Shown here: positions 584 through 32,735 of the stretch, piece by piece
Numbering within the stretch: the first letter of the stretch is position 1
How the letters are laid out: the number at the start of each line of letters is the position of its first letter
Assembly (NCBI RefSeq): GCF_946479415.1
Contig: NZ_CAMLFY010000027.1
Coordinates: forward strand, 1-42,906
Source: an uncultured Shinella sp.
Lineage (GTDB): Bacteria > Pseudomonadota > Alphaproteobacteria > Rhizobiales > Rhizobiaceae
Direction: 5' to 3'
Length of the DNA: 42,906 bases
The notes under the pieces: model-generated
Told to the model about the DNA's origin: nothing
The model's database searches: none
The model's input: only the letters and a program-made list of their open reading frames with translations
Made by a program: the position numbers and the translations under genes

Positions 584-1696
584 TCACCCTACCCCTCGTG
601 ACGGTTGCGACCGTTCGTTCCTGGAGCCGCCGGTGTTGTCGCAATCAAGCGCCCCCCCGACCAACGTTAACGGAGTGTTAATTCCAGCCGAGAAAAATTT
701 AAACTCTCTCCGTCCGAACCCGAAGGGGGCGGGGGGAGGATTCGAAGCCGGCAACGGAATGGGAAGCCATTGAACTGCCTCCCTTTCCTCAGCGACAACG
801 GGCTGCAGGCCGTGAAGATAGGCGACGGCCCGTTGCGCGTGCGCGGCGGCGGCGAAGATCGCCCGCTTGTCGTCAGAGAGCACCTGCAACCAAGACTGAA
901 GGTAGGAGGCGTGATTCGGGCGCGGTTCCAACTCGGGTGCGATGCCGAGATCGGCGCAGAGGAAGCAACTCCCGAGTTCAGCGATCAGTTCTTCGCGGGC
1001 GCGCTCGCTACAATCCTTGCTATAGCGGCTGAGATCACGGCCGACGCGATGCGCCGGGGCCGTCCAGTGCGTAGCCTCATGGCTGAGCGTAGCCACGTAA
1101 GAGGCCGCGTCCTTGAAGCTTTCGGCGAAGGGCATCTGGATATGATCGGTCACAGGGCTGAAGAAGGCCCGGTCGCCGCCATGGCGGATATCCGCGCCGG
1201 TGTTCCGGAAGAACCGAACCGCATGCTCGATCCGATCGACGGGATCGGTACCAGACGGTGCGGATTGATAGTAGCAGTCCGGCAAGCCGTCGATCTGCGC
1301 GACGTTGAAGACGGTATATGCCTTCAGGAAAGGAACCTCACGCTCAATCTCGCCGCCGCGACCGTCGGATTCGGACTTGCTGAAGCGACTGGCAAAGACG
1401 ACGATTGCGCCGGACTCGCCCTTGCGCACGGCTGCGCCAAGCTCCAACGCCTGCTTGAACGTCATCCACATCGGCGAGGAAAACCCTCGCGCGATGCCCT
1501 CCGACCACAAGAGCAGGACATTCATGCCGCTATAGGGAAGGCCGTTGTGACGCAAAGGACGGGTAATCCGGCCTACCATGTTGGACACGCGCCACGGTTG
1601 GACCCATGGGCGGACACCGTTCGAGAGGTCCTCAACGATCCTATCGGTGATACGCGTGTAGATGTCCACGCGCTGCATTTCGGTCCGTTTCTTCAT
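584..1696 (-). CDS. ardC: ArdC-like antirestriction protein
   Basis: A 370-aa protein of the ArdC family. The N-terminal single-strand-DNA-binding domain (about residues 8-130, including DIYTRITDRI and PYSGMNVLLLW) is followed by a zincin-like metallopeptidase domain with HEATH at 206-210 and a downstream Glu (EELIAELG, about 235-242) as the likely third zinc ligand. Known family members protect incoming plasmid DNA from restriction in the new host. The start is placed at the ATG at 1696 because a GGAGGT site lies just upstream; a longer in-frame reading to 1885 adds a low-complexity stretch without a ribosome site. The last 70 or so residues are Pro/Ser-rich and may be a non-conserved tail. 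A small hairpin of the leader type lies 112-122 nt upstream. Confidence 0.9.
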   Translation of the reverse strand: MKKRTEMQRVDIYTRITDRIVEDLSNGVRPWVQPWRVSNMVGRITRPLRHNGLPYSGMNVLLLWSEGIARGFSSPMWMTFKQALELGAAVRKGESGAIVVFASRFSKSESDGRGGEIEREVPFLKAYTVFNVAQIDGLPDCYYQSAPSGTDPVDRIEHAVRFFRNTGADIRHGGDRAFFSPVTDHIQMPFAESFKDAASYVATLSHEATHWTAPAHRVGRDLSRYSKDCSERAREELIAELGSCFLCADLGIAPELEPRPNHASYLQSWLQVLSDDKRAIFAAAAHAQRAVAYLHGLQPVVAEEREAVQWLPIPLPASNPPPAPFGFGRREFKFFSAGINTPLTLVGGALDCDNTGGSRNERSQPSRGVG

Positions 1697-1807
1697 TTTC
1701 CTTACCTCCGTTCCAGAGGTCGCGCCTATCGCGACCCCGTCACGGCGGTCCGCAAGCCGGAACGACAGGGGGACGGCGCACGCAAAGCGCCGGAACGAAG
1801 TGGAGGA

Positions 1808-1818
1808 GGGCGAAGCCC
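1808..1818 (-). promoter_or_regulatory. Leader hairpin upstream of ardC (weak member)
   Basis: GGGC-GAA-GCCC on the plus strand followed by TTGCG. This resembles the stem, 3-nt loop and CTGCG tail of the hairpins at 3489-3514 and 6392-6417. It lies 112-122 nt upstream of the ArdC start. It is the least certain member of the set because the stem is only four pairs. Confidence 0.35.
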
Positions 1819-1928
1819 TTGCGCTGAATCCCGGTTCCGGCAGGACCTGAGCCGGACGGGTCGCTTGGCGCTCGTCGTTCGACATTTCCGTTTCCGATCT
1901 GGCGAAGGAACGTCAGGCATGCTATATA

Positions 1929-1944
1929 TCTGACCATCTGACTA
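1929..1944 (+). promoter_or_regulatory. Direct repeat in front of the phd/vapC-like pair
   Basis: TCTGACCA is followed at once by TCTGACTA, just after an AT-rich stretch (TATATAT) and just before the AGGTGAGG ribosome site of the antitoxin. Phd/YefM antitoxins usually autoregulate by binding short repeats over their own promoter, so this is a candidate operator. Confidence 0.35.
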
Positions 1945-1954
1945 GGTGAGGCAC

Positions 1955-2257
1955 ATGGGTAAGCAGACACAGCTTCCAGGGACGAACAGGCCGGTACACC
2001 CGACGATGAACGGACGGTGGAAGCTCGAGGACGCGAAAGCGCGCTTCAGCGAGGTTGTCCGGCATGCCAGGGAGGACGGTCCCCAGCGCGTGACCGTTCG
2101 AGGTCACGATGCGGTTGTTATCATGAGCGTCGAGGAGTTCGAGCGTCTGGCACCGACTGCGCCTCGCGTGCCGTTCGTCCAGTTCATGGAGGCGTTGCAC
2201 GTCGACGGCTTGGATCTCGAACGCGATGCCGACCACGGCCGGGATGTCGAGTTGTGA
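1955..2257 (+). CDS. Phd/YefM-type antitoxin
   Basis: A 100-aa protein with the Phd/YefM pattern: a WKLEDAKARFSEVV start to the DNA-binding fold (about residues 17-30), a VTVRG(H)DAVVIMS strand region, EEFERL, and an acidic C-terminus that would wrap the toxin. ATG 1955 is preferred over GTG 1946 because AGGTGAGG sits at the right distance. The stop overlaps the toxin start by 4 nt (GTGA), so the two are translationally coupled. This is the antitoxin of the PIN-domain toxin that follows. Confidence 0.88.
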   Translation: MGKQTQLPGTNRPVHPTMNGRWKLEDAKARFSEVVRHAREDGPQRVTVRGHDAVVIMSVEEFERLAPTAPRVPFVQFMEALHVDGLDLERDADHGRDVEL

Positions 2258-2760
2258 AAGGCTGGCTGCTCGATACCAATGTGGTGGCCGCGCTGATCAA
2301 CCCGCAGGGCGCACCCTCCATCAAAGCATGGGCGGCAAGCCAGGACGAAGCGACGTTCCATCTCAGCATCCTGACGCTCGCGGAGTACGACAGGGGAATT
2401 CATCACCTGCCGAACGACCATCCGGACCGATCGCGCTATATCGCATCGCGGGACGCTCTCGCGGATCGGTTTGGTGATCGTGTGCTTTCCCTTCGCGACG
2501 AGGCCGTGCGGCGCTGGGGACGCATATCGGGAGAGTTCAAAAAGGACACCGGGCATCCACCGCCCGTGATCGATACTCTGCTGGCGGCGACCGCAATCGA
2601 GTACGAGCTCTATCTCGTCACGCGCAACGTGAAAGACACGCGCCACTCGGGCGCGGCCATTTTCGATCCATGGACCGATGACCCGGCCAAGTTTCCACTA
2701 AGTCCAAGGGCCAATAGGCCTCGATGGCAAAGGAAATGGCGGGGCCGAAGCCCCGCCTGA
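2254..2760 (+). CDS. vapC: PIN-domain toxin, VapC/FitB-like
   Basis: A 168-aa PIN-domain ribonuclease toxin. It starts at GTG 2254, overlapping the antitoxin stop, with WLLDTNVVAALI (Asp7) at the N-terminus, a central acidic residue in LTLAEYDRGI, and VIDTLLAATA plus TRNVKDT near the C-terminus. These are the positions of the metal-binding acidic cluster. The order antitoxin-toxin and the overall pattern match the FitB-type subgroup. The reading frame is intact, unlike the three other toxin genes in this window. It converges on the minus-strand gene that ends at 2765, only 4 nt away. Confidence 0.9.
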   Translation: MKGWLLDTNVVAALINPQGAPSIKAWAASQDEATFHLSILTLAEYDRGIHHLPNDHPDRSRYIASRDALADRFGDRVLSLRDEAVRRWGRISGEFKKDTGHPPPVIDTLLAATAIEYELYLVTRNVKDTRHSGAAIFDPWTDDPAKFPLSPRANRPRWQRKWRGRSPA

Positions 2761-2764
2761 CCAC

Positions 2765-3349
2765 TCAACCGAGCGCGTCCATCTGCGCTTCGGCCGCCTT
2801 GCGATCGAGCGTCTGGCCGGGATTGTCGACTGGGCGATCGAAGGGCTTCCAGGATTCCCCGACGGCGTGTTCATAAGCCGCGACCGCGCCTTCGGCGGCC
2901 ATCCGGAGCGAGAATGCCTGGATACCCATGTCTGCGGCGAATTCCCGCTTGCGCTGCGCGGAACTGTCGTAACCGACAATGCCTTCGCGGTCGTCGTCGC
3001 GGGCGTCGCTGGCGGCCTTGGCCGTAGCGTCGCGAGCTTCCGTCACGGCGCGCGAGTAGAACTGGCCGGCGCCATGGGCGGAACCGACGAAGGCTCCGAC
3101 GACGCGTTGCAGGTGGATCTGCATCGCACGCTCGCCGAGGCCTTCGGACAAAGCGTCGACGGTTTCGAGGATGAGGCGCTTGTGCGTATCGCGCACACCG
3201 TCGCCGTCGACGACGGTGTGCGCGAAGCTTTCTGCGATCCGCAGCGCCTGGACGGCATCTGGGCAGGTGAGACGGACCATTTCGAGGGTTGCACCCTTGC
3301 GGAGCTGGACGACGCGGGCGGACGGGCGGGGGGTTGCTGACTTGGCCAT
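2765..3349 (-). CDS. Conserved plasmid protein of unknown function
   Basis: 194 aa, not recognised as any named family. It begins with a Lys/Arg-rich stretch (MAKSATPRPSARVVQLRKG), followed by a mostly helical, Ala/Glu/Asp-rich body and a charged segment with DARDDDREG. There is no signal peptide or membrane helix. Position and orientation place it in the same block as ArdC, ParB-like and the methylase-helicase, and it carries one of the hairpin leaders 140-165 nt upstream. A maintenance or anti-defence role is only inferred from this context. Confidence 0.75.
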   Translation of the reverse strand: MAKSATPRPSARVVQLRKGATLEMVRLTCPDAVQALRIAESFAHTVVDGDGVRDTHKRLILETVDALSEGLGERAMQIHLQRVVGAFVGSAHGAGQFYSRAVTEARDATAKAASDARDDDREGIVGYDSSAQRKREFAADMGIQAFSLRMAAEGAVAAYEHAVGESWKPFDRPVDNPGQTLDRKAAEAQMDALG

Positions 3350-3904
3350 TTCGATTTCCTTTTCGGGTTCTTCCGAAGACTTGCGCCGACCCCTTGCCGG
3401 AGCGCCCTTCGGTGCGGTCGAGAAAAGCCGGCGGTCAGACGGTCGCTTTCACAGGTCCGGGGCGCCTGAGCGAGAAAGGCGGGCTTGCGGACAAGCGGGG
3501 GCACAGCCCCTGCGCGGGACGCGGGCTCGCCTTGCGAAGGGAGGGTGAACCGGCCGCAACGCGGCGCGCAGCGGCCTTGAAACGAACGGCCGCCGGGTTA
3601 AGACCGTGCTGAACCAAAGGGTGCTCCGGCAAGGAGCTGGCTCATCGCCCGAACCGAAAGGCCAAACGATGGCCGCGAGCGTCCACACGCTCGCACCTTC
3701 CTGCGCCGATCAGCGACGCGTGGTCCAGTCCGGTCCCGTCGAACCAGATACCTGAAGGCGATCAGGCAGCAACGCAGTGCGGGGGCAGGCGGCCCGGTCC
3801 TTGAACGGCCACAGACCCTTCCTTCCGATGCAACCCCGCAGTAGGGCAGGGGACGCGGGCGACGGGATGGTCCGCCCAGGTTTCACAGCGGCCGCAACAG
3901 AGAT
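3350..3904. other. Long G+C-rich intergenic region with a leader hairpin
   Basis: 555 bases between the unknown 194-aa gene and the frameshifted gene ending at 3905. The part next to the start at 3349 contains the hairpin listed separately at 3489-3514. The rest holds only Arg/Pro-rich shadow frames and no supported gene. Confidence 0.5.
3489..3514 (-). promoter_or_regulatory. Leader hairpin, class I
   Basis: Plus-strand layout: GGACAAGC, then the stem GGGGC-ACA-GCCCC, then CTGCG (one C shared with the stem). The segment at 6392-6417 matches it at 22 of 26 positions. Two of the four differences are a swapped G-C/C-G stem pair and the other two are in the loop. It lies 140-165 nt upstream of the gene starting at 3349. 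Confidence 0.6.
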
Positions 3905-4401
3905 TCATGGCGGTTTTCGCCCACCGGGTCGCTCGCGCAGTGCCCCGATTGCCCGGTCCTGCCGGGCGAGCTTGCCCGATAGCGCATCGATTTCCTGCTG
4001 CCGCTCGGCCGTGATCGCGGCGAGCTTGGCGCGATAGCGGGCAAGGAAAGCGCCGGGCTCCGGCGGCTGGCCGCGTCGATAGGCGTGCCGGCTCGGATGC
4101 AGGTGCGGGATGATGGCCGTCATCCGACGGATGATCTGCCGGTCGATAAGGTCGAGCTGGTGCTGTGTCTGCCGACGAGCCTCTTCCATGCGCGACAGGA
4201 GCGAGCGGCAACCAAGAAGCGAACTCCCGCCGGGGCAGCCCTGGCCCGTCTCACCGCATTTGCAGACGAAATGGCTGGAGGCGTTGTTGCGCCGCCAGTG
4301 ATAAAGCGTCGCGACATGGTGTTGCGAGGGAGGGGGCTTCCGTCGCACCGTTCGACGACCGAAGCGACAGGTGGGAGTGAGATGGTCAGGTCCGCATTCA
4401 T
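3905..4401 (-). pseudogene. Frameshifted Cys-motif protein of unknown function
   Basis: The ATG at 4401 has a good ribosome site (GCAGGAG) and opens with MNADLTISLPPVASVV, but this frame becomes low-complexity after RNT. From about 4318 a different frame continues sensibly as VATLYHWRR, then HFVCKCGETGQGC (a compact Cys-x-Cys...Cys motif that could bind metal) and a coiled-coil-like region from about 4200 to 4020 (MEEARRQTQHQLDLIDRQI). The two halves join if one base has been lost near 4315-4320. It lies between the unknown 194-aa gene and the ParB-like gene on the same strand. The function is unknown; the break may be real or a consensus error. Confidence 0.5.
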
Positions 4402-4432
4402 GGCATTCTCCTGCAGGATCAAAATGCTGAAC

Positions 4433-4470
4433 ACACCTCCGCCGCCGGGCGCTGCCAGCGGCGGAGGTGT
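4433..4470 (-). terminator. Strong hairpin after the ParB-like gene
   Basis: A perfect 13-bp inverted repeat (ACACCTCCGCCGC at 4433-4445 and its complement at 4458-4470) with a 12-nt loop. It lies 25 nt beyond the ParB-like stop and 32 nt before the next minus-strand start. There is only a short T run after it, so termination or processing is probable but not certain. Confidence 0.5.
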
Positions 4471-4494
4471 GGAGCGGAAGGGGAAGTGCGGGGC

Positions 4495-6258
4495 CTATCC
4501 AGCACCGACCGAGTAGGCGGTGTCGTCCTCGATGACCGTCTCCTCCGTGTGGGAGTCGCCGTCCGCCTGCGCGGTGTCGTCAATCACCTCCGGAGAAGCT
4601 TCGGTGGTCGAGGCCTCTTCGCCATCGCTCTTGGCCTGACCGTCCTCCGATTGTCCGTCCTCCTCCACGGCGATATCGCGGGCCTTGAGGATGTCGGAAA
4701 GCTCGGCCAGTTCGGGCGCGAACCGGGCAGCGGGGTGGACGAAGTGCCCCTCCTTGAAATGCTCGACAAGCGCCGCGCGGGTTTCGCGAACGCGCTGGCG
4801 CGGCGCGATCGACGCCTCGCTGCAGGAAGCTTCGAGTGCCTGTCGAGAAAGGCATTCGAGGAAATCGACGGTGCCCATGTTCGGAAGGAAGGCATCTGCC
4901 CCGATGGCCCCGCCGGCAACGCGGGACAGAACACCGCTGTTCGACATGCCGCGGCGGCATGACAGGACGTCGATGAGCGTCTTGCGCGCAGCAATGCGAA
5001 GGGTGTCCACGTCGAACCGGAACTTCCCCTCGTCGTCGAACAGCATGGCCGCGTGCCGATTGAAGCGGGTTCCGCCGAACATCGCGCCACCGGCGCCGGA
5101 ATCGACGCGGACGTTGGTTCCGGCATAGCCGAGGACCAGCAACGCCATCAGCGTGTCATCCTCGATCGGCGCGCGGCCGAGTGCCTCGTGCAACGCGTCC
5201 GTGCGGTAATCGCCGATCATGTCGTGACCGCGCTGCGTCACTTCCGGGCGCCGCTTGGACGCCACGATGGGCTCTTCTGCGCCACCGATGCCACCAGTCG
5301 TCGCCGTGCCGCCATTGCCCGTCGATTTCTTTTCGTCGGGAAGCCGGTAGACAATCGACTGCACCTTGCCCTCGCGGTCGAGATACACTGCCGTGCGGTC
5401 TGACTTCAGCGCCTTGCCATGAACGCGCTCGGCCTTTTTCGGCAGCTCCGGCTGGCCGTAGCCGTTGACTTCGACAATCGCGCCGCGCTTCGGCAGGTTC
5501 GACGTCATCCACTCGTGCTGTGCGCCAAGGAAGCCTTCGACATTGGTCGTGTAGCGATTATCCTCGTTCGCCGGAGCGAAGAGATCCTCCGACCATTCGA
5601 TGCCATAGGACGCGGCAAGGTCGTCGCCGAAGCTGGCATCGCGCGCATACATGCGCTTCTTGTTCAAAGCGTTCGCGATCGACCACCATTGCGCCGTGTC
5701 GCCCTTTTTCGGCTTGCTCGTCTTCCAGATCGACTCCTGGTCCTCGACGCTGGCAGCGGCGATGATGCGAAGCTGCTGCTCGCTCGGCATGTCGCCGAGC
5801 GCGATCTGCTCCAGCATCCCAGGGAAAAGATTGGCAAGCAGGCGGAGCTTCTTGATCTGGCGGACAGGAAGGGCAAGCGCCAGTGCGATGGCTTCCTCGG
5901 TCCAGCCGAGCGCGACGAGACGTTCGACACCGCGCCATTGGTCGACGGGATTGAGATTTTCGCGTGCGATATTCTCGACCATGTTGCGCATCGCGCCATT
6001 ATCGTTCGCCGCCTCGATGATCAGCACCTTGATCTCGTCGAGGTTGGCGGCGATCGCCCCATCCCGCCGGCGATGGCCGTTGTCGATGATGAGGCCGTTT
6101 CCACCACCGGGTTCGGCGAAGACGATCGGTGGATTGATGATGCCGACAGCCTTGATCGTGGCGACCATCAAGGCATCGGCCTGGGGCGACGATTTCGACT
6201 GGCGAGCCTTGTCGGGGTTGTCCTTGAGCAAACGGGGATCGACGACAGCAACACGCAT
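4495..6258 (-). CDS. ParB/Spo0J-like DNA-binding protein
   Basis: 587 aa. The N-terminal ParB nuclease-like fold (about residues 15-110) has NGHRRRDGA and the NPVDQWRGVERLVALG helix characteristic of ParB/RepB/Noc proteins, followed by a helix-turn-helix-type segment (WTEEAIALALALPVRQIKKLRLL). The C-terminal 400 residues are not typical of chromosomal ParB and end in an acidic tail (about 520-587). There is no adjacent ParA, which argues against classical partitioning and for the plasmid accessory ParB-like group. The start at 6258 has AAAGGAA upstream. The gene carries a class I leader hairpin 134-159 nt upstream and is divergent from the mqsRA cassette. Confidence 0.85.
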   Translation of the reverse strand: MRVAVVDPRLLKDNPDKARQSKSSPQADALMVATIKAVGIINPPIVFAEPGGGNGLIIDNGHRRRDGAIAANLDEIKVLIIEAANDNGAMRNMVENIARENLNPVDQWRGVERLVALGWTEEAIALALALPVRQIKKLRLLANLFPGMLEQIALGDMPSEQQLRIIAAASVEDQESIWKTSKPKKGDTAQWWSIANALNKKRMYARDASFGDDLAASYGIEWSEDLFAPANEDNRYTTNVEGFLGAQHEWMTSNLPKRGAIVEVNGYGQPELPKKAERVHGKALKSDRTAVYLDREGKVQSIVYRLPDEKKSTGNGGTATTGGIGGAEEPIVASKRRPEVTQRGHDMIGDYRTDALHEALGRAPIEDDTLMALLVLGYAGTNVRVDSGAGGAMFGGTRFNRHAAMLFDDEGKFRFDVDTLRIAARKTLIDVLSCRRGMSNSGVLSRVAGGAIGADAFLPNMGTVDFLECLSRQALEASCSEASIAPRQRVRETRAALVEHFKEGHFVHPAARFAPELAELSDILKARDIAVEEDGQSEDGQAKSDGEEASTTEASPEVIDDTAQADGDSHTEETVIEDDTAYSVGAG

Positions 6259-6391
6259 GGGATGTTCCTTTCCGGGGTACGGACGCGGCCCTCTTGCCGG
6301 TCCTTCTCGTGTCTTCTTTTGTCCGAAGACACCTCCCGGACCGCGGGGCGGCCGGACCGGCGCAACTGCGGCCGAGCGTCCCTGCGGCGAA

Positions 6392-6417
6392 GGACAAGCG
6401 GGGCCAACGGCCCTGCG
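6392..6417 (-). promoter_or_regulatory. Leader hairpin, class I
   Basis: The second copy of the element at 3489-3514: GGACAAGC, then the stem GGGCC-AAC-GGCCC, then CTGCG. It is 134-159 nt upstream of the ParB-like start, nearly the same distance as the first copy from its gene. The rest of the 6259-6600 region is G+C-rich without a supported gene. Confidence 0.6.
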
Positions 6418-6603
6418 AAGGACGAGTTGCCGGGATGCGCAGGCGGCGGTTGAGCGAAGCGCCGGCGGGAGGACCGATCTGCGATCGGGTTCCTCATTTT
6501 CTCCCTTTCTCTTTCCCCCTGTTTTCCGAGGGCCGATCCGGACGACACAGTCGCCGCAGAATCGGCGGGGTAGGGCGGCGGATGGTGTTGCAGCTCTTGA
6601 TTT

Positions 6604-6620
6604 GCCACCATTAAGGTGGC
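6604..6620 (+). promoter_or_regulatory. Palindrome before mqsR, candidate MqsA operator
   Basis: GCCACC-ATTAA-GGTGGC, a perfect 6-bp inverted repeat 10 nt before the mqsR start. In E. coli, MqsA represses its operon by binding ACCT/AGGT-type palindromes. The ACC...GGT core and the position fit that role here. Confidence 0.45.
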
Positions 6621-6630
6621 GTATCCAGGC

Positions 6631-6953
6631 ATGGAAAAGAAACGCCCGACATACGATCTCGAGGCGATCAAGGCGGCATTGGGATCACCCAGGACGTTGG
6701 CGATCACGACGACGGCACTGCGTACGGCGATGGCTTTGGGGTATGACCGCGCTGGCATCGTCCAGGCGGTCACCGGACTGGATCGCTCGATGTTCTACAA
6801 GTCGATGACGACCTGTGCGGATCACCGGTCTGGCAGGACGTCTATCATGCGCCAGCCGAGGACGAAGGGTTGGTCCTCTATATTAAATTCCAGGCGGACG
6901 TGGTCACCGAGTTCAGGGTCATGTCGTTCAAGGAGAAATCCGATGGCAGTTAA
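6631..6953 (+). pseudogene. mqsR: MqsR-like toxin, frameshifted
   Basis: It opens MEKKRPTYDL, like E. coli MqsR, and keeps the toxin pattern FYKSMT. At 6823-6827 the frame changes; the continuation in another frame reads VWQDVYH, then LYIKF and SFKEK, and stops with TAA at 6951-6953. The conserved Lys, Gln, Tyr and Lys of MqsR ribonucleases are all present but split over two frames. Adding one C to the CC at 6825-6826 restores a single frame. The start overlaps no other gene, while the 3' end overlaps mqsA by 11 nt. Either the toxin is inactive or the sequence lacks a base. Confidence 0.75.
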
Positions 6954-7371
6954 GATGCAGGTTTTGCCGGACACGATGGTTTCCCCGGAGACGGGAGAGA
7001 TCCTATACCGGGATGTCCGTCCGTTCGTCGTCACCTACGAGGGCCGTACCAGGACGGTCGACCTTCCGGGCTATTATCCCGCGGACGGCGACGACGGCGT
7101 TCATGTCGGGGACGACATGGAGGCGTCGGACGCTGCACTGCGGGCGCTGAAGGAAGAAGTCGAAGGGATACCATCGCCGGCGACGATCCGGCGGGTTCGC
7201 AAGAAGCTGAAGCTCTCGCAACGCGAAGCCGGCGGGATCCTCAAGGTGGGCGAGAGCGCTTTCGACAAGTACGAGCGCGGTCTGGTCGAACCGAGCGGGC
7301 CGACGAGCCAGTTGCTTCGGCTGCTCGACCGGCATCCCGAGCTGGTCGAGGAACTGCGCCAGCCGGTATAG
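6943..7371 (+). CDS. mqsA: MqsA-like antitoxin lacking zinc cysteines
   Basis: 142 aa, with AAGGAG upstream of ATG 6943. The C-terminal half (about residues 78-140) is a Cro/CI-type helix-turn-helix with the MqsA signature VRKKLKLSQREAGGIL, FDKYERG and LLRLLDRHPEL. The N-terminal toxin-binding half has no cysteine at all, whereas E. coli MqsA holds zinc with four. The protein would be able to bind DNA and repress the operon even if the neighbouring toxin is dead. It is the antitoxin partner of the frameshifted mqsR. Confidence 0.85.
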   Translation: MAVKMQVLPDTMVSPETGEILYRDVRPFVVTYEGRTRTVDLPGYYPADGDDGVHVGDDMEASDAALRALKEEVEGIPSPATIRRVRKKLKLSQREAGGILKVGESAFDKYERGLVEPSGPTSQLLRLLDRHPELVEELRQPV

Positions 7372-7388
7372 TGGCGATAGCCATGGGC

Positions 7389-7419
7389 AAAAAAATGGGC
7401 CTGCGAAACCGCGGCCCAT
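7389..7419 (-). terminator. Rho-independent terminator of the methylase-helicase gene
   Basis: Read on the minus strand: ATGGGCC, an 11-nt loop, GGCCCAT, then seven T. It is 180 nt beyond the stop of the large gene at 7600 and would also separate it from the convergent mqsRA transcript. Confidence 0.75.
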
Positions 7420-7425
7420 TGAAGT

Positions 7426-7587
7426 GTGAAGGTCAAAACTTCCAGAGGGGAACAGCTGACGCGGCGGCACTGGGAGGAGAAGACCGCCATGTGCATCAAC
7501 TGCGAGCATAATGCCCGTTTCTTGACCAACTGGAAAACATTTATTGTGCAACGCAGCTATGCGGCGGCTGCGTTGCTCCCGTTATGA
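7426..7587 (+). CDS. Small CxxC-containing ORF, doubtful
   Basis: The frame from GTG 7426 reads about 53 residues, including REQLTRRHW-like text (GEQLTRRHWEEKTA) and MCINCEHNARF. A shorter form starts at ATG 7489 with GGGAGGAG upstream. The CINC motif and ordinary composition suggest a real small protein, but nothing could be identified. It overlaps no other supported gene and ends 12 nt before the opposing stop at 7600. Confidence 0.3.
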   Translation: MKVKTSRGEQLTRRHWEEKTAMCINCEHNARFLTNWKTFIVQRSYAAAALLPL

Positions 7588-7599
7588 TCGTCGCCAGCG

Positions 7600-10500
7600 T
7601 CACGCCGCTTGCGCAACCGGCTCAACAGTGGCGCGGGCTTCGGCGGCCAATGCCTCCTCGACCTCCTCCAGTTCCCGGCGCTTGCCGGCGAGTTCGTCGG
7701 CGAAGGCGAAGGTGCCCGTCTCGTGCGCGCGATAGGAGGCGAGCCGGCGGTTGGCGTCTTCGAGATACTGGCGCTGGCGGTGACGCTCGCCCTCGAAATC
7801 ATCGAGCGCATGTTCGAGACGAGAGATCGCACCGAGCGGCGTGACGGTCACCGGCAGGTCGATCTCGTAGTCCGCGCCGGTGCGCTGCAGGACGGTGCGA
7901 TAGTGATACCCGTCCTTGCCGAAGCGCTCTCCCTCGTAGATTACTTCGAAGCCGCCTATCGAGCCGAGCTGCGTCTCGCCCTCGTGCTGAAGCTGGACGA
8001 GAGTGAGGATCTCCTTCATCACCGCGCGACCGGCGTCCTTGCGCTCGACCTGCTGTTCTCCGAGGATGGTCATCGTGAATGCCTCGCCTGATGTCAGCAC
8101 CAGCCGCGCGATATCCTTGCCGATCTCGTCGATCCGGCGCGTCGCGACCTCGATGTCGCGTTCGGCTTCCCGCAGCCGCCGGCGGACCGAGAAGAGATCG
8201 TCGTCATGGGCGGCGCGCAGGCGCTCGAGGCGGGCGATATCAGCCTCAAGACCGGCCTTCTTCATCAGGCGCTCGTCGCCGCTGGCAATCGCCTTCGCCA
8301 TCGCAAACTGATTGGCAGCCCCTTCACCGAGATCTTCCAGCCGGCGGATCGACGTGTCGCCGGAGAGCGCCGCGGCGATAAACCGGGCTTTGCGCTCGTT
8401 GTTCTGCCACATGCTGGCATCCAGCGATCCTTGCGTCGCATAGGCGAAGATATCGACGATATCGTGCTGGTTGCCCTGGCGAACGATGCGGCCCTCACGC
8501 TGCTCGATCTGCGACGGCAACCACGGCACGTCTAGATGATGAAGCGCCTTGAGCCTGAGCTGGGCGTTGACCCCGGTGCCCATCGTCTCGGAGGAGCCGA
8601 TCAGGAATCGCACCCTGCCCGCGCGGACATCCCCGAACAGGCGTTGCTTCGTCTCGGACTTTTTATAGTCCTGCATATAGGCGATCTCGCTGGCGGGCAC
8701 GCCGAGCCGGACCAGCTCGTCGCGGATCCAGCGGTAGGCCGAAAAGCCCCGCGTCCGTTCGACACTGATCGTGCCGAGGTCGGAAAAGATCATCTGCGCG
8801 GCGCCGGGCAGGTCGTAAGGCTTGCCATCGGGACGCATGAAGATCATGTCCGCCGTTTCCTGCCAGATGCGGAAGGCATTCCCGACAAGCAGATTGAGTT
8901 TGTTGTCCGGCTCGTTGTCGTTCGCCGGCATGACCAGGCGCAGGTCGATCGCCGCGTGCCGACCGTCGGTGATAACCGAGAGCAGGATGTCGTCGCCCGG
9001 CTGCGCCGGCCCCTCGCGCATTTCGATCGCCTTGATGCGGCTGTCGAGGATCTGCTGGTACATCTTGAACGCCGCGGTAGGCGTCGCGGTGACGATCTGC
9101 CGCCCACCGGTGGAAATAGCCGGAACACGGACATATTCCCGGAGATCGGCGGGCATGACGACGTCGGCAAACGAACGGAAGAGCGAGATCAATTCCGGGA
9201 CGTTCACGAAGCTGGCAAAGCGCGAGACCGGCTTGTACTTGCCTGAAGGTTGGATCTCCAGTTCGGTGGTCGTCTCGCCGAAGGTGCTCGCCCAGGCGTC
9301 AAACTCGTGCAGGCCGCGTTCATGGAGAGCGTCGTAGCCGAGCAGGCGCTGGACTGAGAACATCTCGCCGAGCGTGTTGGTGATCGGCGTGCCCGAGGCG
9401 AGCACGAGCGCGCGGCCGGGGTTCTTCGTTTCGAGGAACCGGGACTTTACAAACAAATCCCATGCGCGTTGCGAGCCGTTGGGATCGATGCCCTTCAGCG
9501 TGCTCATGTTGGTGGCGAAGGATAGCTTGCGGAATTCCTGCGCCTCGTCGACGACAATCTGGTCGACGCCGATTTCCGAGATGGTGAGCAGATCGTCCTT
9601 GCGGGTCGATAGCGCTGTCAGCCGCTCCTCCAGCCCCTCCTTCAATCTCTCAAGCCGCTTGCGCGACACACGGTCGTCGGGCTCGACCCTGGTCAGCAGA
9701 TCCTCGTAGAGCTGCAACTCGTCCTGAATCATGCTCTGCTCGAAGGCGGAGGGGACGGCGATGAACCTGAACGCCGAATGGGTGATGATGATCGCGTCCC
9801 AGGTCGCCGTCGCCGCGCGTGACAGGAACCTTGCTCGCTTGTCTTTCGTGAAGTTGCTCTCGTCGGCCACGAGAATGCGCGCAGAAGGATAGAGCGCCAG
9901 AAACTCACGCGCCGCCTGGGCGAGGCAATGGCCGGGCACGACCAGCATCGCCTTGGCGATCAGGCCGAGCCGGCGCTGTTCCATGATGGCGGCCGCCATC
10001 GTCATCGTCTTGCCGGCGCCGACGGCGTGGGCGAGATAAGTCGCGCCATCGGCGATAATCCGCCAGATCCCGCGCTTCTGGTGCGCGTAGAGTTGGAACG
10101 CGGCGGAGGCTCCCAGCAGCTGGAGATGCGAACCGTCGAACTTGCGCGGCGCGAGATTGTTGAAGCGCTCGTTGTAGACGCCGGCCAGCCGGTCGGTCCG
10201 CTCCGGGTCGGTCCAGACCCAGCGCTCGAACTCCGTCTTGATCTTCTGCAGCTTCTCGCGGGCAGCTTCGGTATCGACGACGTTCAGCCGCTCGCCGCCG
10301 ACCTCCTTGATCGTGTCGAAGATCTGCGGCACGCGGCTGTTGAGCGCATCGGCGAGCAGTTCGCCGGCGTGGCGGCGGCTGGTGCCCCATTCCGACGTGC
10401 CGGCGGCGCGATAGGCGAGCTGGCGCGCTTCGACGGTCCAGGAGCCAAGTTCCGGCATATGATGGATCTTGATCTCGGCGTCCATCCTCTGCTTGACGAA

Positions 10501-12705
10501 GGCAACGACATCGGCGGCCGGGATCCATGGCGCGCCGAGACGCGCAGTGATATCCGAGGGACGGAGAGGGGAGGGCTGTACCGCTTGCAGCGCGCGGACA
10601 TTGCGCTCGAAGATCGGATCGAGCGCCGCGGCGGCTTCCGCAGCGGCAAGCTTGGTGCGGACCGGGCCGGAGAGATAGGCGTCGGCGGTCTGCCACGCGC
10701 CGTCGGCCGGATTCTGGAACACGGTATCACCGAGCTGGTCGACCACTTTGTCGCGGTCGCAATGCAGGAGCTCGGCGATGTGGTCGAGGTCGACGCGGCC
10801 GCGCTCGTTGAGCACGACGGCAAGCGCGTCGCCGGCATTTGTCACCACAGGCAGGGCAGGGGGCGCGATCACCCGCTGCGAGAAGATCGGACCGGGCTTG
10901 GCCGTGTCGGTGTCGAGGTCGTAGTCCTCGATGGACGCGACCAGCCAGCAGTCGGGATCGTCCCGGAAGGGCTGGAGGTTCGGCTGGCGATGCGTCTCGC
11001 GGGTCTCGCCGGATTCCGCATCCTCGGTGATGCTGACGGTCGTGTGGTTGATCGGCCCGAAATCCCTGACGAAGCTCGACCAGGCGATACGCAGCCGCAC
11101 CTGCAGGTCGCGCCACGGCCGGCCGGTCTCCTGCGCCTTCAGTACCTCGCGCACGGCGTCGCGGACGGGGATCAGCTTCTGGATGGTGCGGACGTGCTTT
11201 TCCGTCAGGCCGTCGCCGGTTCGGCCCTTCCTGACCTTGATCACGACGGGCTGGCCGTCGACGATCTGTATCAGGCCCTGCCTGTTGTCGACCAAGTAGC
11301 TGCCTTCGCGAACATTGGCGTTGCCGGGCTGCAGGTCTACAATCTCGGCCAGTTCTTCCTCGAGATCGAGATCGATCTCCGTCGGCTCGCCGTCATAGAG
11401 GTCTTCCGGCAGACGGCTGACGGCCGCGTTCAGCACCTCGGCGAGGTTCTCGCCCGCCCGCGCCCGGCAGGTATAGGTCTCGCCGAACGGACCGGAAGTC
11501 AGCGCGTGGGTGCCGAGAACCATGCCGGGATTGTCTGCGAACCAGCGATTGACGCGGATCGCGCCTTCGTCATCCGTAGCCGGGCGGACTTCCTCGACGT
11601 CGAGCCACGAAACGTCGCCCTCGGCCTCGGCGATCTTGCGTTTGCGGAAGAAGAGGATGTCGACGACGGTGTCCGTGCCGGCGTCGCGGCGGAAACTGCC
11701 CTCGGGCAATCGGATGGCTGCGACGAGGTTGGCCGATCTGGCAATTTGCGCACGCGCCGTCGCGTCTGCCTTGTCCATCGTGCCGCAGCTCGTCACGAAG
11801 GCCGCCAGCCCGCCGGGCTTCAAGAGGTCGATCGAGCGGGCGATGAAGTAGTCGTGCAGCCGAAGCGCAAGCGGCCGATAGTGATGGTCCGACCTTACCG
11901 TCCGGTCGGAGTAGGGCGGATTGCCGATAGCGAGGTCATAGACGACGCCGAGGTCGGTACGGGTGAAGTCGCCATTGACGATGCGCGCTTTCGGCTGCAG
12001 CAACCGCACGATACGCGCCGTGACCGGATCGAGTTCGATGCCGGTGACATGGCTGGCGGCACGATAGGCCTGCGGCATCAGCGCAGGGAACAATCCCGTG
12101 CCGATGCCCGGCTCCAGCACGCGGCCGCCGCGCCAGCCGAGACGCTGCAGCCCGGCCCACATCGCCCGGACGATGAATTCGGGCGTGAAGTGCGCATACT
12201 GGGTGCAGCGGGCGAGCGAGGCATAGTCGGCCTCGTTGACGGCTGTCTCCAGCGAGCTGCCGAGATCGTCCCAACCCTCGCGGAACTCCACCTCGCCTGG
12301 CCGACGGAACATGCCGTTGGCCAGCTCAGATGCGCCGAAGCCGGTGAAGTGGATTAGTTTCTGCTGTTCCTCGCGCGACGCCGGGCGGTCCTGTTTTTCG
12401 ATTTCGCCGGCAATCAGGATGGCCGCGACGTTCGCCTTCGCCCGTTCCTTCCAGCCGGCGGCGAGACCGCGGCCCTCGTCGTCGAGGAAGAAATTGCTGC
12501 GTGCGCCCTGTTTGCGCGGGGCCGGGTTGCGCGCCGCGGCGATCGGCAGAGCCGGGGCAGGGGCGGGCGGCGTCGGGTCCGGATCGTCATCGTTGGCGGC
12601 GAAGGGATCGTGGCCGCTAAATCCGGAAATACCGAGGCCGAGGCCCAGCCTAGACGTCAACGCGGTGTTGCCGAGCATGTCGAGCGTGAAAGGATCGTTG
12701 CTCAT
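7600..12705 (-). CDS. DarB-like DNA methylase-helicase fusion
   Basis: A 1701-aa protein joining an N6-adenine methyltransferase and an SNF2-type helicase. The methylase part has the SAM motif VLEPGIGTG (about 196-204) and the catalytic NPPY (about 262-265). The helicase part has AVGAGKT (about 890), DEAQ (about 1050) and a late QREGRIVRQG motif (about 1400), followed by a coiled-coil-rich C-terminus. The same architecture is known in DarB of phage P1, which protects DNA from type I restriction in cis, and in large plasmid-borne proteins. The start at 12705 has AAGGAG; a longer frame to 12861 is low-complexity. The frame is intact over 5 kb. It carries a class II leader hairpin 169-205 nt upstream. 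Confidence 0.9.
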   Translation of the reverse strand: MSNDPFTLDMLGNTALTSRLGLGLGISGFSGHDPFAANDDDPDPTPPAPAPALPIAAARNPAPRKQGARSNFFLDDEGRGLAAGWKERAKANVAAILIAGEIEKQDRPASREEQQKLIHFTGFGASELANGMFRRPGEVEFREGWDDLGSSLETAVNEADYASLARCTQYAHFTPEFIVRAMWAGLQRLGWRGGRVLEPGIGTGLFPALMPQAYRAASHVTGIELDPVTARIVRLLQPKARIVNGDFTRTDLGVVYDLAIGNPPYSDRTVRSDHHYRPLALRLHDYFIARSIDLLKPGGLAAFVTSCGTMDKADATARAQIARSANLVAAIRLPEGSFRRDAGTDTVVDILFFRKRKIAEAEGDVSWLDVEEVRPATDDEGAIRVNRWFADNPGMVLGTHALTSGPFGETYTCRARAGENLAEVLNAAVSRLPEDLYDGEPTEIDLDLEEELAEIVDLQPGNANVREGSYLVDNRQGLIQIVDGQPVVIKVRKGRTGDGLTEKHVRTIQKLIPVRDAVREVLKAQETGRPWRDLQVRLRIAWSSFVRDFGPINHTTVSITEDAESGETRETHRQPNLQPFRDDPDCWLVASIEDYDLDTDTAKPGPIFSQRVIAPPALPVVTNAGDALAVVLNERGRVDLDHIAELLHCDRDKVVDQLGDTVFQNPADGAWQTADAYLSGPVRTKLAAAEAAAALDPIFERNVRALQAVQPSPLRPSDITARLGAPWIPAADVVAFVKQRMDAEIKIHHMPELGSWTVEARQLAYRAAGTSEWGTSRRHAGELLADALNSRVPQIFDTIKEVGGERLNVVDTEAAREKLQKIKTEFERWVWTDPERTDRLAGVYNERFNNLAPRKFDGSHLQLLGASAAFQLYAHQKRGIWRIIADGATYLAHAVGAGKTMTMAAAIMEQRRLGLIAKAMLVVPGHCLAQAAREFLALYPSARILVADESNFTKDKRARFLSRAATATWDAIIITHSAFRFIAVPSAFEQSMIQDELQLYEDLLTRVEPDDRVSRKRLERLKEGLEERLTALSTRKDDLLTISEIGVDQIVVDEAQEFRKLSFATNMSTLKGIDPNGSQRAWDLFVKSRFLETKNPGRALVLASGTPITNTLGEMFSVQRLLGYDALHERGLHEFDAWASTFGETTTELEIQPSGKYKPVSRFASFVNVPELISLFRSFADVVMPADLREYVRVPAISTGGRQIVTATPTAAFKMYQQILDSRIKAIEMREGPAQPGDDILLSVITDGRHAAIDLRLVMPANDNEPDNKLNLLVGNAFRIWQETADMIFMRPDGKPYDLPGAAQMIFSDLGTISVERTRGFSAYRWIRDELVRLGVPASEIAYMQDYKKSETKQRLFGDVRAGRVRFLIGSSETMGTGVNAQLRLKALHHLDVPWLPSQIEQREGRIVRQGNQHDIVDIFAYATQGSLDASMWQNNERKARFIAAALSGDTSIRRLEDLGEGAANQFAMAKAIASGDERLMKKAGLEADIARLERLRAAHDDDLFSVRRRLREAERDIEVATRRIDEIGKDIARLVLTSGEAFTMTILGEQQVERKDAGRAVMKEILTLVQLQHEGETQLGSIGGFEVIYEGERFGKDGYHYRTVLQRTGADYEIDLPVTVTPLGAISRLEHALDDFEGERHRQRQYLEDANRRLASYRAHETGTFAFADELAGKRRELEEVEEALAAEARATVEPVAQAA

Positions 12706-12868
12706 CCAGATCTCCTTGTGAGCAGGCGTGCGCCATCGCCCGCGGGAAGGGGTTCCAGCAGGTGAGGGGCGCTTGCGATGGGATGAGGGGGTGATGCGGT
12801 CGGAAGCGGAGCGATGTCCTTCCTTCTTCAGACCTTGTCTTGCACGATCCGGAGCCCGCATCGCGGGC

Positions 12869-12915
12869 GGCCGGTCAAGGGCCGCTTCAGCGGCAACGCC
12901 TGCCCTTGACGGGCC
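12869..12915 (-). promoter_or_regulatory. Leader hairpin, class II
   Basis: Arms GGCCGGTCAAGGGC (12869-12882) and GCCCTTGACGGGCC (12902-12915) pair with one mismatch and enclose a second hairpin, GCCGC-TTCA-GCGGC. It shares GTCAAGGG...CCCTTGAC and a loop of about 21 nt with the element at 13841-13878. It is 169-205 nt upstream of the methylase-helicase start; the rest of the 12706-13122 gap holds no gene. Confidence 0.6.
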
Positions 12916-13122
12916 GGGCGTGCATGCGGGAGGTCTTCTTCGGCCCCTTCTTCTTCCCGTTTCTCATCCGCCCCTGCAGCGCGGCGCGGATATCCGTCAG
13001 GAGTGATCGACGCCCTCCTGGCGATCGTCACCCTCGAAGCCGGAGATGAAGCGTTCGGCGCGATCGAGGGTGTGGAGAGGAGCAGGGGGAGGACGTTGCG
13101 ATACGCAGGCCTTCCGCCCCCA

Positions 13123-13728
13123 TCACGCCGCGGCCGCATCGGGCAGGTAGCGCAGATGCACTGGCAGCTTGGCGGCGATCTCCTCGTCTGTCATGGCTTC
13201 GAGCAGCTTCGGGACGCTCCCCAGTTTGCCGCCGAAGAAATGGACGGTGCGCCGGCCGCGCGACGCGTAGGGCCAGCGATAATCGGCATAGCCGCGATAG
13301 GGCGCGGCGGTGCTGCTCCAGATGTGCTCGAGACGTTCTTCCCGCGTCATCGCCCGCACCGGCCGGCTCTCGCGTTCGATGATGGCGAGACGCATGCGCT
13401 CGACTGACATATCGTCGGAAAGATCGCAGTAGCCATGAAAGTAGCGGATGGCATCGTCGATGCGCAGCGCGAAAAACACCGACGTCACCGACCCGGTCAG
13501 GAATTGCCGGAGTGCGAACATCGAGCCACGGATCCAGAGGGGCGGCTCCACAGCGAACATATAGTCGTGTTCGGCCTCGCCGATCTCAAACCATTCCCCG
13601 GCATAGAGCACCGTTGCGTCATCCGCGCGGTGGTGAACGCGCCCGGTATGGCGGTCGAACATGCGATACATCTGTCGGCGGTCGGCGACGCCCTGGAATA
13701 CCTTGCGGATTACGAGTGCGGTGGTCAT
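13123..13728 (-). CDS. Conserved plasmid protein of unknown function
   Basis: 201 aa, not recognised. It is rich in aromatic residues and Arg (DYMFAVEPPLWIRGSMF, YRGYADYRWPYASRG) with no signal peptide or clear membrane segment. The start at 13728 has AAGGAG just upstream. It is co-oriented with the methylase-helicase downstream and the TOPRIM gene upstream, and carries a class II leader hairpin 113-150 nt upstream. Only the context suggests a plasmid establishment role. Confidence 0.72.
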   Translation of the reverse strand: MTTALVIRKVFQGVADRRQMYRMFDRHTGRVHHRADDATVLYAGEWFEIGEAEHDYMFAVEPPLWIRGSMFALRQFLTGSVTSVFFALRIDDAIRYFHGYCDLSDDMSVERMRLAIIERESRPVRAMTREERLEHIWSSTAAPYRGYADYRWPYASRGRRTVHFFGGKLGSVPKLLEAMTDEEIAAKLPVHLRYLPDAAAA

Positions 13729-13840
13729 GTGCGGCTCCTTCGGGGCTGTCGGACCGAAGCGCGGCGTAGCCTTCTCGACCCAGCCTTCTTCTTCAGTCCT
13801 CTGTTACCCCTCCTCGACCGCCGGTATCGCGACCGGCCGG

Positions 13841-13878
13841 GTCAAGGGCCGGCTCCGCCGGGCGAAGCTTCCCTTGAC
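13841..13878 (-). promoter_or_regulatory. Leader hairpin, class II
   Basis: GTCAAGGG (13841-13848) and CCCTTGAC (13871-13878) form perfect 8-bp arms with a 22-nt loop that itself folds (CCGG...CCGG). Outer bases (CCGGCCGG and GCGGGCGG) extend the stem with mismatches. It overlaps the last codons of the TOPRIM gene, whose C-terminus (ASPGGAGP) is therefore dictated by the hairpin. It is 113-150 nt upstream of the 201-aa gene. Confidence 0.6.
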
Positions 13879-14834
13879 GCGGGCGGCGCGCATCCGGCAC
13901 GCCTCGCCTTTTTCCGTTCCTCCCTTCTTTCCTTTTCCACCTTTGCTTTTTCCTGGAGCGCCTCGTTCCAGTCGTCCGCCGTCGGCTGCAGCCGCTGCCA
14001 GGCGCAACCGGCGCTGTCGGCGAGGACGCGCAGACGCTCGGCAAAGGTCTCGCCCTGATCATTCGCGTCGGTCGCCGCGACCAGCGTGACGCCGGGACGC
14101 GAGGCCAGGGTCCGCAGGGCCGCATCGGTAAGGGGGGACCATCCCCCGCCGGTGCTGAGATATTGCGAGCCATCGCGGAGGCTTTCGAAGGCGGCGAGGC
14201 TCATGGCGTCGATCGCCGCCTCCGTAACGCAAAGGCGCATGGCATCCCGCGGGCCAAGACGGAATAGAGTTTTCGAGCCACCCGTCGAGAACCCGCGCCA
14301 TTCCGGACCGCGCTCCTCCCAGCCGCAGACAATGCCGGCATCGTCCGTGTGGGCCGCCCACATGCTTCCATATGGACCTTCGCGAAGCTGGTTGTTCGTG
14401 ATTGCCATTCGCAGCACGCTCGCCGGAAGGAAACGGGCGCCGGACAGATAGCGCCAGGTCGCGGACCCGCGCCATGGAACGCGTCGCGCCGACCATCGAT
14501 CCGCAAGACTGGTCGCTGCGGGTCGCTCGCGGGGTGCCTTCGCCCAGACCGGATCACTGGTCTGGAATCCGACCAGGGACGCAACGCTTGCGACACCCTC
14601 GACGAAGCCGACATGATCGAGACGTCGCACGAGCGCGAAGATATCGCCCTTGTCGTCGCTGAGCGGATCGAACCAGCCCTTTCCCTGATGGGTCACGATG
14701 ACAATCTCGCCGCCCCGGCGAAACTTGACCGCCCGGCGCGTGCTCTCCTTGACGTCGACGGCAAATCCGGCCCGCTCCAGAAGCGCACCGCAATTCACCT
14801 TCTCCTTCAACTCTCTGATTTTCTCTTTTTTCAT
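13842..14834 (-). CDS. DUF3991 and TOPRIM domain protein (primase-like)
   Basis: 330 aa. The N-terminal part (about 1-70: MKKEKIRELKEKVN, VTHQGKGWFDPLSDDKGDIF) matches the DUF3991 zinc-finger-like primase leader found in plasmid proteins. The C-terminal half is a TOPRIM fold with LCVTEAAIDAMSLAAF (Glu about 215) and VTLVAATDANDQGETFAERL (DxN/D motif about 268-273). Such proteins are thought to act on nucleic acids during plasmid transfer or replication. The ribosome site for 14834 is weak, so the exact start is uncertain. The tail from about residue 300 is Lys/Glu-rich then Pro/Gly-rich. Confidence 0.82.
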   Translation of the reverse strand: MKKEKIRELKEKVNCGALLERAGFAVDVKESTRRAVKFRRGGEIVIVTHQGKGWFDPLSDDKGDIFALVRRLDHVGFVEGVASVASLVGFQTSDPVWAKAPRERPAATSLADRWSARRVPWRGSATWRYLSGARFLPASVLRMAITNNQLREGPYGSMWAAHTDDAGIVCGWEERGPEWRGFSTGGSKTLFRLGPRDAMRLCVTEAAIDAMSLAAFESLRDGSQYLSTGGGWSPLTDAALRTLASRPGVTLVAATDANDQGETFAERLRVLADSAGCAWQRLQPTADDWNEALQEKAKVEKERREERKKARRAGCAPPASREASPGGAGP

Positions 14835-14924
14835 GCCAATCCGGCCGCGCCAGCGACCGCTCCCTTCTTTTCCCATCCACACATTTGCGCAGCAAATCGA
14901 CACCCGCCGCGCCAAGCGGCAGCT

Positions 14925-14986
14925 GCAAGGGCGCGGAGATCGGGGCGAGGGGAACCCGCGCCCCGCCGCGGCGCCGCTTCCCTTGC
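14925..14986 (-). promoter_or_regulatory. Leader hairpin, class II variant
   Basis: GCAAGGG (14925-14931) pairs with CCCTTGC (14980-14986), and inside it CGGGGCG (14941-14947) pairs perfectly with CGCCCCG (14959-14965). The AAGGG/CCCTT arms resemble the other class II elements, but the enclosed part is longer (48 nt). It is 91-152 nt upstream of the TOPRIM gene start. Confidence 0.5.
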
Positions 14987-15030
14987 GGACGCCGCATGGA
15001 TGCGGCACCTCAGAGGAAGGCAGGGCGGGC

Positions 15031-32095: not shown

Positions 32096-32098
32096 GGA

Positions 32099-32671: not shown

Positions 32672-32735
32672 GGGATCATCCGGCGAATGGAGTGCGGAGG
32701 CCGGGCGCCCTTTGGAAGCGCCCGGCACGGATAGG

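Follow-up and report, generated by a model that had tools for sequence, protein, structure and literature searches.

Conserved folds before anti-defence genes of rhizobial plasmids, very probably formed by the entering DNA strand, as candidate early promoters

The window, a stretch of 42,906 nucleotides (nt) from an uncultured Shinella sp. (contig NZ_CAMLFY010000027.1, positions 1 to 42,906), is rhizobial plasmid DNA whose closest relative among the matches listed is the Shinella sp. record NZ_OZ000538.1 (99% of 12600-15300, 92.8%). Its first 16 kb matched 384 plasmid records in a near search, and the segment 12600-15300 matched 594 in a distant search. The window carries a block of anti-defence genes, named by Pfam profile search and by annotation in relatives, together with conserved structured elements that stand before many of these genes (Table 1). 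The elements are very probably single-strand structures of the strand that enters the recipient during plasmid transfer (the entering strand, here +, the template of the block genes), and among the roles weighed here, that of early promoters would be the likeliest, with priming sites as the main rival. The start codons checked letter by letter are ATG at 12705, 13728, 14834 and 1696. A first-pass annotation of this DNA had all genes pointing the same way, which holds for the anti-defence genes and fails for two toxin-antitoxin-like pairs of open reading frames (ORFs) lying between them on the opposite strand. These pairs, Phd/VapC-like (1946-2700) and MqsR/MqsA-like (6632-7372) on the + strand by the annotation of relatives, oppose the block genes and would therefore be unreadable from the entering strand.

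Table 1. Genes and structured elements of the anti-defence block in the window.
Feature	Position	Strand	Basis and remarks
ardC	584..1696	-	Pfam ArdcN and MPTase-PolyVal; ATG 1696
194-aa gene, function unassigned	2765..3349	-	no Pfam match; kept in relatives
ParB-like gene	4495..6258	-	Pfam ParB_N below cut-off; ParB N-terminal domain annotated in relatives
Methylase-helicase gene	7600..12705	-	Pfam SNF2-rel_dom and ResIII above cut-off; Eco57I slightly below
DUF1419 gene (201-aa gene of the first-pass annotation)	13123..13728	-	Pfam DUF1419, 182.7 bits
DUF3991/TOPRIM gene	13842..14834	-	Pfam DUF3991, Toprim_2; stop codon within DUF1419 element
Single-strand binding protein (SSB) gene, same block	15991..16308	-	Pfam SSB, 50.2 bits
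ar15 small RNA RF02345	7390-7501	-	96.3 bits; between MqsR/MqsA-like ORFs and methylase-helicase gene
Class II element before DUF1419 gene	13817..13895	+	covariance model R1 95.9 bits on +, 32.5 on -
DUF1419 element core	13841..13878	+	outer stem 13841-13848 with 13871-13878; inner hairpin 13849-13861; mini-hairpin GC-GAA-GC 13862-13868
Class II element before methylase-helicase gene	12850..12927	+	R1 61.5 bits on +; mini-hairpin loop AAC, not GNA
TOPRIM-type element before DUF3991/TOPRIM gene	14901..15013	+	alignment A2, 43 relatives; mini-hairpin loop GCC, not GNA
Class I stretch, long imperfect hairpin, before ParB-like gene	6301..6545	+	consensus of 40 relatives
Class I structured stretch upstream of 194-aa gene	3350..3591	+	19 relatives
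AGGGC-GAA-GCCCT mini-hairpin before ardC, within longer structured stretch	1807..1819	+	letters checked; varies in relatives

The four motifs from which the first-pass annotation started lie exactly where it had placed them, as matches on the + strand upstream of genes on the - strand. The pattern GTCAAGGG-N12-30-CCCTTGAC occurs twice in the window (12874-12910 and 13841-13878; 0.00 expected from 100 shuffles), GCAAGGG-N30-55-CCCTTGC once (14925-14986; 0.02 expected) and the ardC hairpin GGGCGAAGCCC once (1808-1818; 0.11 expected). Because 10 of the 100 shuffles hold at least one GGGCGAAGCCC, the last match is weak by itself. A chance origin was rejected for the three arm pairs on the basis of these shuffles; the ardC hairpin alone could be chance, yet it recurs in relatives. 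The near edges of the matches lie 169 nt (methylase-helicase), 113 nt (DUF1419), 91 nt (TOPRIM) and 112 nt (ardC) from the start codons, and the arms are the cores of longer conserved elements, of ~79 nt for class II and of 113 nt in the window and 112-155 nt in relatives for the TOPRIM type.

Folded alone as DNA, the + strand of the DUF1419 element adopts the same three-way junction that covariation supports, a fold that reaches significance on + alone (z -3.36, compared to -0.81 on -). The TOPRIM element of the window reaches -3.68 on + and -3.37 on -, with structures that differ between the strands, the methylase-helicase copy is weak on both strands (-1.70 and -2.11), and the ParB and ardC elements of the window are significant on neither strand in single-sequence folding. 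Given these mixed folds, the argument is built on comparing relatives. A search of the elements against 4227 Rfam families gave no match at E up to 5; the small RNA ar15, an Rfam family, lies in the same block. Coding constraint, a candidate explanation where the TOPRIM gene runs into the DUF1419 element, was set aside, as relatives carry 1-2-nt insertions there and the stop codon shifts.

Comparison of upstream regions from 54 DUF1419 loci and 49 methylase-helicase loci revealed the class II element in 53 of the former (the exception being L018) and in 8 of the latter, namely those of Shinella plasmids plus three other loci. The alignment A1 has 47 sequences (41 DUF1419 and 6 methylase-helicase rows), taken from 49 after removal of the shortened L013 and the decayed L030, and the alignment A2 of the TOPRIM element has 43 rows, taken from 44 after removal of L021. 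On the entering strand, the A1 sequences form a three-way junction that consists of an outer stem, a GTCAAGGG/CCCTTGAC stem, an inner hairpin and a mini-hairpin. In this structure 96.8% of the cells are paired, and 8 pairs and 33 cells are changed on both sides, the cells compared to 8.1 (standard deviation 2.2) in shuffles; none of 500 shuffles is as high on any of five measures. Versions of the structure slid along the alignment are only 30-46% paired, a control that favors the structure because it was drawn on the same sequences. At the same sites, the covariance model R1, which was built on the entering strand, scores 75-102 bits on that strand and 15-45 bits on the other.

The class II model matches 15 of 16 genomes selected for holding DUF1419; among 247 family genomes, 48 have a match. 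A repeat scattered over the genome was considered and rejected, since the strong placed matches in 16 genomes all lie in this block, with outside matches only at E 0.04-0.07. One 50-bit match on a 1.46-Mb contig of G231 (L106, ~5017-5093) has no DUF1419 gene behind it and may represent a copy in decay or an element that has integrated. For validation, 58 of 67 model matches were fetched, 50 of them unique and not identical to any model row; the set leaves out five rows of G001 and one of G013 (seen before), two extra copies of G075 and one opposite-strand row. Arms like GTCAAGGG/CCCTTGAC hardly vary, and the letters CTTGAC resemble a rhizobial -35 box, as might suit an operator, that is, a double-strand site for a plasmid regulator in which pairing is a by-product of dyad symmetry. 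However, the inner hairpin and the outer stem contain changes on both sides, as do the arms in two instances, and neither a strand bias nor variable loop lengths would be expected of such a site, so that we regard an operator as very improbable.

A G-T pair on one strand is an A-C mismatch on the other, and therefore wobbles tell which strand folds. In stems S1-S3 of the DUF1419 rows of A1, seven wobbles point to the entering strand and none to the mRNA strand. Among the 50 new class II elements, which come from genomes that did not contribute to the model, the count is 56:6 for the entering strand; as the outer-stem pairs had been chosen on that strand, S1-S3 were also counted without the outer stem, giving 14:2. 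The TOPRIM elements have 23 entering-strand wobbles in S1-S3 against 12. In addition, consensus folding of five regions is better on the entering strand in all five, exceeding every one of 100 shuffles in four, and in a second comparison of nine units, with other region lengths and relatives, it is better by energy in seven. The ParB element, an imperfect hairpin of roughly 190 nt, has a consensus energy of -55.5 kcal/mol on the entering strand and -25.6 on the other, and the 240 nt upstream of the 194-aa gene have -59.0 and -36.1. Single-sequence energies give a mixed result: folds are better on the entering strand with RNA and DNA parameters, respectively, in 23 and 26 of 26 cases for ParB, 6 and 5 of 7 for the 194-aa gene, 3 and 3 of 5 for ardC and 10 and 11 of 29 for TOPRIM; for DUF1419 with DNA parameters they do so in 18 of 33. 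A second conserved hairpin, GTCTTC...GAAGAC, lies between the ParB element and the ParB-like gene (window ~6317-6333).

The loops of the mini-hairpins show a further regularity. On the entering strand the mini-hairpin reads GC-GNA-GC with the middle loop base free to vary, consistent with the stability rule for DNA, by which GNA and GNNA loops closed by G-C are described as extraordinarily stable (PMC4686876). The 41 DUF1419 rows have 39 loops of GNA type (GAA 37, GCA 2; AAA in the other 2), and 37 of the 43 TOPRIM rows have GNA or GNNA loops (GAA 24, GCA 11, GGA 1, GTGA 1; the others being GCC 3, GTC 2 and GTG 1). The 50 new class II elements have 45 (GAA 33, GGA 7, GCA 3, GTA 1, GGCA 1), in addition to two AAA loops and three that could not be parsed. 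In the ardC hairpin the stem and the loop vary together over 18 upstream regions, with ACGGC-GAA-GCCGT in nine, AGGGC-GAA-GCCCT in four and ACGGC-GTA-GCCGT in two. The density of GNA mini-hairpins with a stem of at least 3, given per 320 nt for the entering strand, the other strand and shuffles in this order, is higher on the entering strand for ardC (1.33, 0.28, 0.41), TOPRIM (1.43, 0.19, 0.39), the 194-aa gene (0.95, 0.47, 0.45) and DUF1419 (1.06, 0.67, 0.25). The same wobble bias would result if the strand with the conserved fold were transcribed as a small antisense RNA against each leader, and the known small RNA family ar15 is indeed encoded in the block. Nevertheless, one such RNA per unit would be required, a scan of both strands of 12600-15300 found nothing promoter-like, and the loop rule as described is one of DNA rather than RNA (PMC4686876), which makes antisense RNAs the least probable of the readings weighed here.

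We located the transfer side of the block in related plasmids, the window itself being without an origin of transfer (oriT). In p42a of Rhizobium etli (L036), oriT between traA and traC consists of an inverted repeat followed by TATAATTGCG-CCCT (locus 1520-1540). The inverted repeat presumably lies 5' of the nick, as in RSF1010, and the orientation of the nick site (nic) leans partly on this assumption. The MOBQ relaxase TraA of pIP501 is described as nicking at GpC (PMC4981023). The MOBQ-type nic motif, with at most three mismatches, occurs once each in 15 of 20 related plasmid records, compared to 0 for the reversed control; it is missing in NZ_OZ000538.1 (the closest relative of the window), CP132318.1, NZ_CP023069.1, NZ_CP074395.1 and NZ_CP039925.1. 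In all 15 records with nic, which are not 15 independent draws because the plasmids are related, the block lies downstream of nic when the nicked strand is followed, and its genes have this strand as their template. Late entry of the block, named by the first-pass annotation as the finding that would speak against single-strand promoters, was looked for in these relatives, and all 15 place the block on the leading side. By simple arithmetic, nic and DUF1419 are ~18-40 kb apart in the related plasmids. The relaxase gene and the block lie on opposite sides of oriT, and a relaxase gene in the lagging region is described as the usual arrangement (PMC11541004).

Further analysis on the gene map of p42a, with at most 25 relatives per gene and 12 shuffles each, revealed structured upstream regions before nine genes that are first in their units: two near oriT, DUF736, ardC, the 194-aa gene, ParB, DUF1419, TOPRIM and a 58-aa gene. 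Too few relatives were available for traC (2), traG (3), thermonuclease (3) and h5989 (3). Among five operon-internal genes, upstream structure is essentially absent in three, small in one and intermediate in one. The mixed set of methylase-helicase upstream regions has no structure in the same consensus comparison. In relatives with annotation, among them p42a and pAoF64/95, the methylase-helicase gene directly follows DUF1419 (and DUF3085) without an element, and in Shinella relatives three genes lie between DUF1419 and methylase-helicase (L035 6977-9034) and an element precedes the latter. Similarly, R. rhizogenes L099 has intervening ORFs and an element before DUF3085, and in Afipia L102 and L023, a locus of a metagenome-assembled genome, an extra gene between TOPRIM and DUF1419 bears its own element. 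Altogether, class II elements precede six unrelated genes, namely DUF1419, DUF3085, methylase-helicase, DUF6117, a DUF6878-like gene (below cut-off) and an unnamed 244-aa gene, with their ends mostly 35-100 nt, and in one case 341 nt, from the start codon. In the window only ~400 nt (12705-13122) separate DUF1419 and methylase-helicase, yet the latter has retained its own element. The region upstream of the 58-aa gene (L036 22250-22476) is ~87% conserved in Agrobacterium and Methylocystis plasmids, and the match stops short of TOPRIM and DUF1419.

The evidence on strand and structure would fit equally a role as priming sites of the ssi type, in which hairpins of the entering strand recruit primase or a primosome, perhaps the TOPRIM protein of the plasmid, for a multi-point start of the second strand, with gene position secondary. 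The block includes a DUF3991/TOPRIM gene, the elements of the window are spaced ~1 to 6 kb apart, and Frpo of the F plasmid is said, in the title of a 1997 paper by Masai and Arai, to serve both transcription and primer synthesis. Like ssi priming sites, the elements are hairpins that the single strand carries during plasmid transfer; unlike them, they are tied to gene starts, tracking unit boundaries at the short distances given above and appearing where units are split, none of which pure priming needs. We therefore consider priming sites an unlikely explanation, albeit one to be taken seriously.

Several observations weigh against a reading as early promoters on the entering strand. The mini-hairpin loops of the methylase-helicase copies are AAC or AGC (0 of 6 GNA), that of the TOPRIM element in the window is also not GNA, and GNA mini-hairpins are not enriched before ParB (0.40, 0.70, 0.26) or methylase-helicase (0.16, 0.22, 0.32). 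Wobble counts are reversed for DUF736 (5:7) and ParB (3:8). In the nine-unit consensus, TOPRIM and the 58-aa gene (small58) fold better on the mRNA strand by energy and the z-scores of DUF1419 and TOPRIM favor that strand, as do the single-sequence folds of DUF1419 with RNA parameters (32 of 33). The operon-internal gene h10452 scores in between (z -3.3/-3.9), and for h12093 the mRNA strand gives a small score (z -7.7, -8.8 kcal/mol). Moreover, C-to-T drift on an often-single strand could mimic the wobble skew. In the paired columns of A1, C-to-T accounts for 40/839 and G-to-A for 12/887, compared to 31/527 and 25/558 in unpaired columns; because the paired skew exceeds the unpaired one, the class II skew goes beyond the drift background. 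Pooled over the nine units, the paired columns give 113/3904 versus 94/3950, with no excess over that background, and the strand evidence is weaker for elements other than class II. As for signals, a search for consensus Escherichia coli-type sigma-70 -35/-10 pairs found none in 12600-15300 (0.3 in shuffles). Finally, RNA sequencing of R. favelukesii made hyperconjugative by an rcgR mutation is reported to show the DUF3991 gene of the homologous plasmid up together with the tra genes, and the published table has no other gene between the DUF3991 and thermonuclease genes (PMC13055273). These data fit conventional tra-linked control of the DUF3991/TOPRIM gene at least as well, and lend no support to the idea that all elements are equally active in donors.

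The folds that favor the mRNA strand bear on the alternative already named in the first-pass annotation, a leader RNA or attenuator whose mRNA fold would control translation or termination. It could also draw on a possible mRNA hairpin CTTCGG/CCGAAG over the ribosome site of DUF1419 (window 13728-13752, - strand), of which many relatives have like letters. However, the conservation on the mRNA strand that is expected of an RNA leader or riboswitch is not found for class II, and is ambiguous for TOPRIM and small58. Class II covariation, the wobbles and the GNA loops fit the other strand, no terminator-like site was found beside the elements in 12600-15300, and they match no Rfam family. Because wobbles and loops fit the non-mRNA strand and no terminator adjoins, this alternative is disfavored for class II, and overall we judge it improbable.

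Among known systems, Frpo1 and Frpo2 of F are reported to act in vivo, where genes are expressed early and transiently from the entering strand (PMC9849209), and leading-region anti-defence genes are described as oriented so that the entering strand can be read (PMC11541004). The rhizobial elements resemble these promoters and the ssi/Frpo-like promoters of ColIb-P9, as far as described, in lying in a leading region, folding on the transferred strand that is the template, standing upstream of anti-defence and SSB genes and occurring in more than one copy per leading region. They differ from Frpo in that no -35/-10 pair was found, in being of several structural kinds before many units, in the short three-way junction of class II, which includes a GNA mini-hairpin, and in their setting on alphaproteobacterial MOBQ plasmids. 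The Frpo-like promoters suggested in the first-pass annotation agree with the leading side and template strand in 15 of 15 records, the class II fold, the unit-first placement and the duplication at split units, and disagree with the missing sigma-70 pair, because of which we do not file the elements as Frpo and regard them as working, at best, in a Frpo-like way. No mention of rhizobia or Alphaproteobacteria was found in the excerpted text of PMC11541004.

A second comparison is with the early promoters of phage N4, described as a template-strand hairpin with a three-base loop and a sheared G:A pair that survives SSB, while the hairpin of the other strand melts (PMC4496689). The rhizobial mini-hairpin loop and the strand that bears it recall these promoters. 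Set beside the N4 pattern of a 5-7-bp stem and a G-purine-A loop, the comparison is mixed: the ardC hairpin has a 5-bp stem and a GAA loop (GTA variant in relatives), and the class II and TOPRIM mini-hairpins have 2-3 bp inside a larger fold, that of class II within the junction. N4 promoters are served by the virion RNA polymerase of the phage. A search for the single-subunit RNA polymerase profile PF00940 gave 0 of 16 plasmid records, and as 0 of 14 control genomes matched too, this is not evidence of absence.

We propose that DNA folds of the transferred strand on rhizobial MOBQ plasmids start early transcription of the block, an explanation that we hold to be probable as a whole, if modestly so. 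Computation gives the positions of the elements, the conserved class II fold on that strand with its GNA loops, and the occurrence of one element for each separated unit; for relatives it also gives the leading position of the block and the strand that is its template. On entry into a recipient, the block would arrive on the leading side, with its genes readable only with the entering strand as template. This strand would fold before many units, into the class II three-way junction or, at ParB and the 194-aa gene, into long imperfect hairpins. We infer that these folds would recruit RNA polymerase, and that ardC, the ParB-like, methylase-helicase, DUF1419 and TOPRIM genes and their neighbors would be transcribed early, before a second strand exists; synthesis of that strand would melt the folds and end the early burst. 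By analogy with N4, each unit may even have a single-strand promoter without -10 and -35 boxes, in which the GNA mini-hairpin of the template strand marks the start, the loop survives SSB and the second strand closes the switch, a more specific version that we put forward tentatively and consider possible but rather unlikely.

Outside the block, the window carries TRAP transporter genes DctM, DctQ and DctP with a GntR-type regulator (30689-34505), apparently cargo, and a Fic-domain protein with DUF4172 (41189-42436).

In the open-licence literature, a scope outside which most subscription journals fall, we found no description of single-strand promoters or of such elements in rhizobial plasmids. 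How the Ti, Ri, Sym and catabolic plasmids of rhizobia express establishment and anti-restriction genes while they are still single-stranded thus appears to be undescribed. A sequence-defined element with a covariance model turns this into a directly testable question, and allows leading regions to be found without knowing their genes. If the elements are promoters, single-strand promoters extend beyond the enterobacterial, sigma-70-like Frpo; if they are priming sites, second-strand initiation is dispersed. In either role, they would represent a conserved structure of single-stranded DNA, not RNA, that is backed by covariation.

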